Shown one piece after another: positions 1,730-18,440 of a stretch of DNA of 42,528 nt; within the stretch, counting starts at the first letter, position 1; the number at the start of each line of letters is the position of its first letter. The notes under the pieces were generated by a model, which did no database searches, had not been told where the DNA came from, and saw only the letters and a program-made list of their open reading frames with translations. Source of the DNA: an uncultured Erysipelotrichaceae bacterium. GTDB lineage: Bacteria; Bacillota_I; Bacilli_A; RF39; UBA660. The position numbers and the translations under genes were made by a program. The stretch spans positions 1-42,528 of the forward strand of contig CADAMI010000005.1 of assembly GCA_902788975.1 (NCBI GenBank), in the 5' to 3' direction.

Positions 1730-1752
1730 TTGCTCCATAGTTTATGGAGCAA
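1730..1752. repeat. Palindrome A, copy 1
   Basis: Perfect 10-bp arms TTGCTCCATA and TATGGAGCAA around a 3-nt centre. It lies about 40 nt upstream of the HTH protein start codon (1688). A second copy is at 1962-1980. This is a likely dyad binding site or hairpin in the control region. Confidence 0.7.
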
Positions 1753-1796
1753 GTTAATAAAAACCGTTAAAAATTAAAAAGCAGGATAAAGGATTT

Positions 1797-1848
1797 GATA
1801 TCATTGACATATTAAATTCCTTATCATATAATGACTAGCAATGATATC
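1797..1848. repeat. Spaced inverted repeat GATATCATTG
   Basis: Arms at 1797-1806 and 1839-1848 are perfect 10-bp complements separated by 32 nt. The right arm lies in a longer perfect palindrome, AATGATATCATT (1840-1851). It sits between the two copies of palindrome A and is a plausible operator pair. Confidence 0.55.
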
Positions 1849-1961
1849 ATTTCTCATTTTGCACTTGCAAAATCCACCATAAAAGCAGTTACAATACTCC
1901 ATAAATTTAAAAATATAACATCTAAAGTCGCATAAAATAAGAAAATCTACCCGTCGGACTT

Positions 1962-1980
1962 TGCTCCATAGTATGGAGCA
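1962..1980. repeat. Palindrome A, copy 2
   Basis: Perfect 9-bp arms TGCTCCATA and TATGGAGCA with a single central base. This is the same sequence as the copy at 1730-1752 with a shorter centre. The one-base centre makes a hairpin awkward, so a dimeric protein-binding site is the more natural reading. Confidence 0.7.
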
Positions 1981-2051
1981 TTACGTTGTAATAATAATGT
2001 TTCATATGTTAATACCTCCTTCCATTTTAAAATTAAAGAGAAATATGTCCC

Positions 2052-2089
2052 TTCACCCTTTAGTAGCGAAAATGGCAAAAAGTTAAGTC
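2052..2089 (+). repeat. 38-bp direct repeat, copy 1
   Basis: Begins TTCACC, has the core TTTAGTAGCGAAAATGGCAA, and ends AAGTC. It matches the copy at 2150-2187 over most of its length (both share GGCAAAAAGT and a final AAGTC). The third copy at 2207-2244 is more diverged. Confidence 0.6.
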
Positions 2090-2107
2090 AAAAAATCAAA
2101 AAAAATA

Positions 2108-2127
2108 AAATTTGACGTAAATTTGAC
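2108..2127 (+). repeat. Short tandem repeat AAATTTGAC
   Basis: AAATTTGAC at 2108-2116 is repeated at 2119-2127, giving an 11-bp period close to one helical turn. It lies between copies 1 and 2 of the 38-bp direct repeat and looks iteron-like. Confidence 0.4.
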
Positions 2128-2149
2128 ACTTAATCTTAAAAATATATCC

Positions 2150-2187
2150 TTCATATATTTGTAGTAAAATTGGCAAAAAGTAAAGTC
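2150..2187 (+). repeat. 38-bp direct repeat, copy 2
   Basis: It shares TTCA, GTAG, AAAATTGGCAAAAAGT and the final AAGTC with copy 1. The similarity extends about 10 bases further upstream (AAATATATCC against AAATATGTCCC). It starts 98 bp after copy 1. Confidence 0.6.
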
Positions 2188-2206
2188 TGCTTTTAATTTT
2201 TTTATC

Positions 2207-2244
2207 TTCACCATTTAGTACTAAAAACAGGGAAATAACAACCT
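2207..2244 (+). repeat. 38-bp direct repeat, copy 3 (diverged)
   Basis: The left half TTCACCATTTAGTA nearly matches copy 1, while the right half has diverged. It starts 57 bp after copy 2 and lies about 115 bp before the recombinase start codon. Confidence 0.5.
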
Positions 2245-2290: not shown

Positions 2291-2319
2291 CAAAAAATAT
2301 ATTAATCAATTCCAAAAAG

Positions 2320-2328
2320 TGATATAAT
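2320..2328 (+). promoter_or_regulatory. Candidate promoter of the serine recombinase gene
   Basis: An extended -10, TG-A-TATAAT (TATAAT at 2323-2328), lies 31 nt before the start codon. The -35 is poor, so use of an alternative sigma factor cannot be excluded. Skin recombinases are known to be controlled by the mother-cell factor SigE, but I see no well-spaced SigE promoter here. Confidence 0.45.
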
Positions 2329-2359
2329 ATAAATAACATCACATATATGGAGGTGAAAT

Positions 2360-4063
2360 ATGGCTAAAACAAATAATGAAAGATTAAAACATATAATCTA
2401 TGGTAGAAAATCAAAATTTACTGGTAAAGGTGAAAGCGTTGAAAATCAAGTTGATCTATGTAAAAACGACATTATTTTGCATAATCCAAATGTAACTGAT
2501 GATGACATATTAGTTTTTATGGATGAAGGATTTACTGGTGCTAATCTTAATAGACCAGCATTTCAAGAAATGATGAACTACATAAAAAAATATGGGGCAA
2601 TAGATTTAAGATGCTACAGATTAGATCGTATAAGTAGAAATGTTGGTGATTTCTGCAACTTAATAAAAGAATTACAAAACTATGATGTTCCTTTTATTTC
2701 AATAAAAGAAAAATTTGATACCAGCACATCAATGGGAAATGCCATGATGATGATATCTTCTGTATTTGCACAACTAGAAAGAGATACCATTGCAGAAAGA
2801 ATTAGAGATAATATGATGGAACTTGCTAAAACAGGAAGATGGCTTGGAGGAACTACACCACTTGGTTATAAATCCGAAGAAATTAATAAAATTAATTATG
2901 ATGGCAAAAAGAAAAAACTATTTAAACTGGTTGAAGTACCATTAGAAAAAAGTGAAGTAGTTTTACTTAAAAATAAATACAAAGAAATAAAGTCACAAAC
3001 AGGACTAGAAACTTATACCATTAAAAATAATCTTAAGACAAGATTAGGTAAAAGATTTACAAGATGGAGTATCGTTAACATATTATCAAATCCAGTTTAT
3101 TCGGCAGCTGATAAAGATTCATTTGATTATTTTACAAAAAAAGGTGCCATTGTAGTCGGCGAAAGAAAAGATTACAATGGAAAATATGGACTTATGGTAT
3201 ATAATAAGACAAATCAACTAAAGAAAAAAGGTGCTGAAAGCAACCCAATAACTGAATGGATTGTAGCTATAGGTAAACATAATCCATTTTGGACAGGTAA
3301 AGAATTTGTCGAAGTACAAGAACTACTAGAGTTAGGAGCTAAAAAAAGATTTAGAAAGCCGACCGTAAATAATGCCCTATTATCAGGCATTATCAGATGT
3401 GAATACTGTGGTAATTTTATGAGGCCTAAATTATATAAAGAAAATAAGGATGGCACTAGAAATTTTGCCTATATGTGTGAATTAAAAGACAAAAGTAGAA
3501 AAACAAGATGTCAGTGTAAAAATATAAATGGTATAGAAGTAGATAAAAAAGTAATGGAAGTATTAAAAGAAAGAACTGCTAAAAATAGCAGTTACTTAAA
3601 GAAAATTCAATGCTTAGCAAATGGTACTGGAGAACACTTAACAAAAGAAGAAAATGAATATTATGCTCTTAATGCTGAAATAAAGAAAAATGAAAAAGAA
3701 ATAGAATTACTAATAGATAGATTAAAAATAGTACCTGTTGATATTGTTCCTGAAATTGCAAAAGAAATACAAAAACTAAAAGCAGCAAATAATCAAATAA
3801 CAGAAAGAATTAAAGAACTTAATGTAGATACACTATCTCTAATAAAAAATCAAGATGATGCTAAATTAGTAATGGAAGTAATAGAAAATAATATAATAGA
3901 TTTTAGTTCACTAGACTTAGTTCAAAAGAGATCACTAGTAAAACTATTTATATCATCCGTTTATAGTGATGGTAAAAACATTAGAGTTAAATTAACAGGA
4001 AGTAAAGAAAACTCGAAGACAATAGAATTACCCTCCCGCAGTGGCGGGGATGGAAATGAATAA
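2360..4063 (+). CDS. Large serine recombinase (SpoIVCA/skin-type candidate)
   Basis: A 567-residue site-specific integrase/excisionase. Order: an N-terminal resolvase catalytic domain (about 10-160) with 'YGRKSK' holding the nucleophile Ser18, 'YRLDRISRN' and 'QLERDTIAERI'; the long helix to 'GRWLGGTTPLGY'; a recombinase domain (about 200-300); a zinc ribbon beginning 'CEYCGNFMRPK' with later Cys residues ('MCELKDKSRKTRCQC'); and a C-terminal coiled coil (about 425-500). All catalytic landmarks look intact. ATG 2360 follows GGAGGTGAA. It lies directly against a SigK C-terminal fragment, which makes developmental excision its likely job. Its last codons form a GC-rich hairpin unlike the rest of the gene. 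An ordinary ICE or phage integrase that happened to target sigK remains the alternative. Confidence 0.92.
   Translation: MAKTNNERLKHIIYGRKSKFTGKGESVENQVDLCKNDIILHNPNVTDDDILVFMDEGFTGANLNRPAFQEMMNYIKKYGAIDLRCYRLDRISRNVGDFCNLIKELQNYDVPFISIKEKFDTSTSMGNAMMMISSVFAQLERDTIAERIRDNMMELAKTGRWLGGTTPLGYKSEEINKINYDGKKKKLFKLVEVPLEKSEVVLLKNKYKEIKSQTGLETYTIKNNLKTRLGKRFTRWSIVNILSNPVYSAADKDSFDYFTKKGAIVVGERKDYNGKYGLMVYNKTNQLKKKGAESNPITEWIVAIGKHNPFWTGKEFVEVQELLELGAKKRFRKPTVNNALLSGIIRCEYCGNFMRPKLYKENKDGTRNFAYMCELKDKSRKTRCQCKNINGIEVDKKVMEVLKERTAKNSSYLKKIQCLANGTGEHLTKEENEYYALNAEIKKNEKEIELLIDRLKIVPVDIVPEIAKEIQKLKAANNQITERIKELNVDTLSLIKNQDDAKLVMEVIENNIIDFSSLDLVQKRSLVKLFISSVYSDGKNIRVKLTGSKENSKTIELPSRSGGDGNE
4034..4049 (+). 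other. GC-rich hairpin at the 3' end of the recombinase gene
   Basis: CCCGC (4035-4039) pairs with GCGGG (4044-4048) across an AGTG loop, extendable by one G-T pair. The surrounding 20 bases are about 80% G+C in a gene near 30%. No T-run follows, so it is not a standard terminator. Its place just inside the element end suggests an attachment-site, RNA-stability or acquired-sequence role. Confidence 0.5.
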
Positions 4064-4077
4064 AAAGTTTCCACGAG

Positions 4078-4467
4078 GTGAATATTGCAAATGAAATTCT
4101 TATGTACTTTAGAGCGGATAAGAAGAACAGTAAAAATGTCAGCCTTTATGAAGAAATTAGTTATGATAAAGAAGGTAATAAAATAACCATTATGGATATT
4201 TTAAAAACTAATGATATTGATTATGTTGAAGATATATATAAAAATGACAGTATTAAATTACTTAAAGAATATATGAATATATTGACTCCTAGAGAAAGAG
4301 AAATAATTGAATCTCGTTATGGATTAAATGATCAAGATGAAGCAACCCAAAAAGAAATTGCCAAAAAATTAAAAATATCACGTAGTTATGTTTCTAGGCT
4401 AGAAAAAAGAGCTACAACTAAAATATTACGAGAATTTATGAAAAGAGAGCAAAAATCAAAGAAATAA
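4078..4467 (+). CDS. sigK: 3' (C-terminal) part of an interrupted sporulation sigma factor, SigK type
   Basis: From Asn at 4090 the frame gives about 126 residues: 'NEILMYFR', 'VSLYEEISYDKEGNKI', 'DILKTND', then sigma region 4 with 'LTPREREIIESRYGL' and the HTH 'TQKEIAKKLKISRSYVSR', ending 'LEKRATTKILREF'. These are the landmarks of SigK after its skin junction; SigE shares NEILMY but differs at the DKEGN and SRSYVSR blocks. Region 2 and a true start are absent. The GTG at 4078 is only the first in-frame start and may never be used. The missing N-terminal half should lie left of the window beyond the element, and excision would restore the gene. The rpmB promoter begins immediately after its stop codon. 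A fragment of SigE rather than SigK is less likely. Confidence 0.85.
   Translation: MNIANEILMYFRADKKNSKNVSLYEEISYDKEGNKITIMDILKTNDIDYVEDIYKNDSIKLLKEYMNILTPREREIIESRYGLNDQDEATQKEIAKKLKISRSYVSRLEKRATTKILREFMKREQKSKK
4090..4094 (+). other. Candidate recombination core AATGA (right attachment site)
   Basis: AATGA spans the Asn-Glu codons at the point where the SigK similarity starts. In B. subtilis the skin crossover core is AATGA at the same codons. A second AATGA lies at 4055-4059 in the last recombinase codons, so the exact site is uncertain without the other end. Confidence 0.55.
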
Positions 4468-17816: not shown

Positions 17817-18440
17817 ATGATTAAAATAGCTACATCGATTTTATCATCAAAAAATAGAAAAGAATGTATTGAGAAATTAAATAAAACGGATACAGATTAC
17901 ATTCATATTGATGTTATGGATAATATTTTTGTTCCTAACTACCAATTACCAATTGAAGAAGTAAACGAGTTAGGAAAGAATTCAAAAAAACCGCTTGATG
18001 TTCATCTAATGGTTGAAAACCCAGAATCATTTATAAAAAATATAGCTATTAATAACATAAAATCAATAACCATACATTTAGAAATTAATAAAAATATTAA
18101 TAATTTAATAGAACTAATTAAGAAATATAATTATCAAGTTGGAATAGCCATTAAACCAAATACCGATATTAATAAAATAGATAAATATATTAATCTAATC
18201 GATAAAGTTATTATCATGAGTGTTGAGCCGGGATTCGGTGGACAAACATTTATTGACAGTTCTGTTGATAAAATTAAAAGCATTCGAAGCAAACGAAAAA
18301 ATATAATCATCGAGGTAGATGGTGGCATAAATAATGAAACAATCAAAAAAATTAGTAATGATGCTGACATAGCAGTAGTTGGTTCATATATAATAAATAA
18401 TAATGATTATCAAGAAGCAATTAATAGTCTAAAAAATTAG
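17817..18440 (+). CDS. rpe: Ribulose-phosphate 3-epimerase
   Basis: 207 residues, a TIM barrel. Landmarks: 'IHIDVMDNIFVPN' (metal-binding Asp), 'LDVHLMVENP', 'MSVEPGFGGQTF' (phosphate loop) and 'IEVDGGINNETI'. It interconverts ribulose-5-phosphate and xylulose-5-phosphate in the pentose phosphate pathway. ATG 17817 follows an AGGTGAT site that overlaps the rsgA stop. It is last in the operon, and its stop codon lies within the terminator hairpin. Confidence 0.95.
   Translation: MIKIATSILSSKNRKECIEKLNKTDTDYIHIDVMDNIFVPNYQLPIEEVNELGKNSKKPLDVHLMVENPESFIKNIAINNIKSITIHLEINKNINNLIELIKKYNYQVGIAIKPNTDINKIDKYINLIDKVIIMSVEPGFGGQTFIDSSVDKIKSIRSKRKNIIIEVDGGINNETIKKISNDADIAVVGSYIINNNDYQEAINSLKN

Follow-up and report, generated by a model that had tools for sequence, protein, structure and literature searches.

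Excision of the skin element of C. difficile, as distinct from its integration, requires CD1234, a protein of 72 aa (PMC5025042), and excision of the skin element of B. subtilis requires Skr, of 64 aa (PMC6957869). The window analysed here (the entire contig C5 of 42,528 bases, from an assembly of 1.23 Mb that is 70.6% complete) shows the right junction of a skin-like element that interrupts sigK. Its intergenic region carries direct repeats, which we compare below with the recombinase, attachment sites and neighboring features of related elements.

The right junction and its recombinase

A large serine recombinase (LSR) of 567 aa (2360-4063, forward strand; Pfam Resolvase, Recombinase and Zn ribbon) is directly followed on its 3' side by a sigma-factor fragment, the C-terminal half of sigK (4090-4467, forward strand; best models NCBIfam SigK, with TIGR02846 matched over positions 112-226), an adjacency that places the element among the skin-like ones. 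At attR (4067-4093, forward strand), the element arm GTTTCCACGAGGTGAATATTGCA is joined to an AATG core in the sigK C-half. The left end of the window is the contig edge, and the N-half of sigK was not identified in the assembly, where of five region-2 matches the three whose frames were read belong to two intact factors, one of them SigE-like, and to a SigF/G-type factor; in relatives the N-half is present in place. No phage structural genes were seen in the visible part of the element. Excision of the element during sporulation would be predicted to restore sigK.

Related LSRs (43-62% identity) were found in 11 other genomes of the family, the closest in a Bacilli assembly from a goat omasum metagenome, and a wider contig scan returned this goat-omasum relative again and nothing else; the literature on sigK elements in rumen bacteria held nothing directly relevant. 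Both sigK halves were located in relatives, where attL and attR could be read, and attP was inferred in six of them. The att sites share an AATG core within the Asn codon of the ENEI motif, and in most of the six relatives the arms of the inferred attP read TTTCCA / TGGAAA on the outside and GGTGA / TCAC(C) on the inside, a layout with which the attR arm of the window agrees. Outside sigK, a related LSR occurs together with a homologue of the candidate directionality factor described below in genome G037 (L006, L113), where its neighbors, named by eye, resemble a transporter substrate-binding protein and a GerA-type germination protein.

Upstream of the LSR gene lies a conserved promoter box (GTGATATAAT...ATCAC; 2309-2353, forward strand), which is the best attP-like match in 1690-2359, with 17 of 22 positions in agreement (maximum of 15 in 20 shuffles). 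The GTGATATA box, often with a mirrored partner, was present at the promoter of seven of the eight LSRs verified in sigK (the window counted) and also at two other LSRs, and its expected chance occurrence is about 0.9% per upstream region. On one reading, the LSR would bind at its own promoter, possibly as autoregulation, which we treat as a lead only because the arms of the box stand two bases closer than those of attP; nothing directly relevant was found in the literature on recombinase autoregulation.

Neighboring genes and a covarying hairpin

On the reverse strand, a gene for a 71-aa protein (899-1114) without a significant Pfam or PHROG match has homologues of 57-74 aa in most LSR-carrying relatives (loci L194-L202 and L217-L226), several of which are no more than about 1 kb away from the N-half of sigK. 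Homologues were present in 7 of 8 LSR genomes compared with 3 of 235 others (243-genome sample, own genome included and LSR-genome membership taken from genome labels; Fisher ~1e-10). From this co-occurrence and from the position of the gene, we propose the protein as the directionality factor of the element, and it would stand for a candidate family of recombination directionality factors. At locus L116 (in G307), an ORF of about 61 aa lies between the GTGATATA box and the LSR, which is the position of skr in B. subtilis.

The same strand encodes a 163-aa HTH_36 protein (1197-1688) that resembles replication initiators (Pfam PF13730, 3e-10; PHROG replication initiation, 1e-11), in which no domain beyond the HTH passes the Pfam cut-off and which a comparison of related elements did not recover there.

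Between this gene and the repeats lies an oriT-like hairpin (1776-1882, forward strand) that forms part of a conserved element: window positions 1741-1982 are 81% identical to positions 18065-18306 of contig C17 of the same genome, where the hairpin copy itself spans 18165-18271 (L105), and further copies occur at L124-L139. By exact pattern the hairpin was found in 12 of 193 genomes, and an LSR gene lies within about 0.6 kb of most copies. When 15 copies were fitted to a common structure, 35 compensatory cells were counted compared with a shuffled mean of 11.2 (reached in 0 of 500 shuffles), a signal that collapses once the pairing is slid, and the blocks GCAGGATAA and TTTTGCACTTGCAAAA are invariant. 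In genome G108, a TraG-like ATPase and an M23 peptidase are encoded to one side of the hairpin and a MobL/MobP2-like relaxase to its other side, a position that an oriT could occupy. The hairpin is possibly an oriT or a structured RNA; Rfam gave no match over 1150-2700 at E values up to 1. The palindromes GCTCCATAGTTTATGGAGC and GCTCCATAGTATGGAGC (1732-1750 and 1965-1981) flank the hairpin in the window, and related palindromes flank the C17 copy, with CCCGTCGGAC also conserved. The part of C17 that holds this copy is a second mobile region of the genome and also carries three LSR genes and a MobV-like relaxase (assigned by motif).

The repeats and their distribution

Between the leftward HTH gene with its small neighbor and the rightward LSR, a sequence of about 40 bases is present twice in full and once in part. 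The sequence-only reading had described three imperfect 38-bp direct repeats starting at 2052, 2150 and 2207 between the divergent HTH and recombinase genes; the starts and the placement are confirmed, and the copies can be extended to 2050-2089, 2148-2187 and 2205-2244 (all forward strand). Copies 1 and 2 are good, with 31 of 40 ungapped positions identical, whereas the third copy is partial, being restricted to its first 23 bases (2205-2227), of which 18 match copy 1; its remainder (2228-2244) does not match copy 1, and over 40 positions it scores 24 with copy 1 and 21 with copy 2. Likewise, GGCAAAAAGT and AAGTC, which had been listed as common to all copies, belong to copies 1 and 2 only. 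The spacing of the copies is irregular (98 and 57), and their spacers and flanks are mutually unrelated.

When 1690-2359 was dinucleotide-shuffled 500 times, the best pair scored 25.6 on average and 30 at most, and none attained 31; a third copy at 24/40 turned up 59 times, i.e., copy 3 taken over its whole 40 nt is at chance level. The score of its first 23 bases was reached in none of 2000 first-order Markov shuffles, which gives copy 3 the appearance of a true partial copy, though the figure is optimistic as the stretch was picked after the match had been seen. For a background of natural sequence, 1133 tiles, each of 670 bases, were drawn from related genomes, and 14 of them (1.2%) contain a pair at 31/40 or better. 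This is a conservative yardstick since some of these pairs are probably coding repeats, and the pair formed by copies 1 and 2 is thus unusual, not extraordinary. Short ORFs overlapping the repeats exist and were set aside, as a convincing ribosome-binding site was seen for none of them, and a sigma-70 promoter scan stayed at chance level.

No equivalent of the repeats was found in relatives. The repeat consensus scores 27 and 25 of 30 in the window and at most 19 upstream of ten LSR relatives (the scoring script missed two further ones); for each of 12 LSR relatives, the best 40-base pair within the 400 upstream bases falls in the shuffle range, and ahead of the related LSRs of 43-62% identity the motif does not rise above noise. 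Its 17-base core, with up to one mismatch, gave 13 single matches in 386 family genomes outside the window versus 12 for a reversed control (our own count of the result table), and in its own genome the motif appears only as the two window copies. The motif is also absent at HTH-homologue loci, where two of the upstream regions tested carry marginal repeats of other sequence, in a test that is approximate owing to wrong frames at a couple of loci (at L035 and L039, for example, a recombinase frame was picked). Searches of IMG/VR with the LSR and the HTH protein returned no relatives, and its 37 exact-pattern matches to GGCAAAAAGTWAAGTC were rejected as scattered, one match each, and lacking the TTTAGTA block. 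Phage and plasmid collections held no match to the intergenic DNA, and a family-wide DNA search with this region gave mostly short AT-rich matches, the hairpin part excepted. The conservation in homologous elements on which the sequence-only reading had made its claim depend in part is absent among the LSR relatives. Judged by these comparisons, the repeats are private to one sigK-interrupting element among the genomes compared, and most likely they play no general part in the excision of the element.

What the repeats may be

We tentatively favor, at somewhat less than even confidence, the reading that the repeats, lying in a divergent control region, serve the HTH protein as operators private to the element; it is the most likely of the readings considered, with a functionless relic close behind. 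Directly shown are the existence and location of the repeats, the recombinase, the interruption of sigK and, in relatives, the att layout. Mechanistically, the element's own HTH protein would bind the repeats, the HTH gene and the small candidate directionality-factor gene would form one leftward operon, and binding would tune transcription on one or both sides of the control region, such that recombinase and directionality factor might be kept low until sporulation. The placement between divergent genes and the HTH_36 domain count in favor of operators, and that the motif lacks matches elsewhere agrees with its being a site for a protein specific to the element. Weighing against them, the motif is missing near HTH homologues, few of whose upstream regions are even marginally repetitive; the HTH protein resembles a replication initiator and not a repressor; the copies are long and irregularly spaced; and 1.2% of related-genome tiles carry an equal pair. 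Since no relative conserves the repeats, operators are without evolutionary support. Quite possibly, the repeats are a relic, i.e., a short sequence copied locally that has since drifted and has no present function, as would suit a motif found nowhere else in 386 family genomes, the lack of equivalents upstream of 12 related LSRs, and the frequency of such pairs in the tiles. A single tandem duplication, however, would not leave three dispersed, sharp-edged copies with shared blocks, and the ungapped likeness of these copies between unrelated spacers is better fitted by binding sites.

The other functions proposed for the repeats appear less probable than operators or a relic. Iterons of an element origin, as the sequence-only reading had suggested, would make the repeats the origin of an HTH replication initiator serving the excised circle; the HTH protein does match phage replication-initiation families and the oriT-like hairpin adjoins its gene, but there are only two good copies without the regular spacing of an array, neither the motif nor upstream repeats in general recur near HTH homologues, and the protein has no other domain at the Pfam cut-off, which leaves this reading weakly supported and unlikely. 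We consider a compact mobility and replication module, combining the oriT-like hairpin, repeats bound by an HTH initiator, and the directionality factor, doubtful to a similar degree; if it were true, replication or mobilization would be open to the excised sigK element, instead of simple disposal in the mother cell. Slightly less probable still are sites for a host sporulation regulator, for which the position of the repeats upstream of a conserved promoter box and the sporulation control of B. subtilis spoIVCA (PMC6957869) would speak, but such sites would be expected elsewhere in the genome, where none were found. Most improbable are accessory recombinase sites that set the direction of excision, another role suggested earlier: the repeats lie beside the recombinase, and TTCACC, carried by two copies, resembles the inner attP arm; yet it is all that they have in common with the attP layout of the same recombinase family, the best attP-like match falls in the promoter box instead, every related element compared is without the repeats, and known skin elements rely for direction on protein factors (PMC5025042; PMC6957869), a candidate for which is present here at 899-1114.

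Comparison with known systems

As they stand, the repeats are a private detail, and their surroundings are more useful; should they be operators, they would illustrate how the recombinase of one element is fitted to the timing of its host. The surroundings provide a set of att sites for a sigK-interrupting group of elements in small-genome Bacilli, a family of candidate directionality factors, and a covarying hairpin common to many recombinase-bearing elements.

As in the iteron origins and repressor operators known from mobile elements, the locus has direct repeats next to an HTH gene, but its copies are too few, irregularly spaced, and not conserved. The skin element of B. subtilis (spoIVCA, skr) is similar in that sigK is split with an LSR beside one junction, and its published directionality factor is also a small protein (64 aa; PMC6957869). 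In contrast to that element, the candidate factor here lies apart from the recombinase and on the other strand, and the description consulted makes no mention of direct repeats; the visible part of the present element also differs in showing no phage structural genes. In C. difficile (CD1231, CD1234), sigK is likewise split by an LSR element, whose excision depends on a small protein of 72 aa (PMC5025042).
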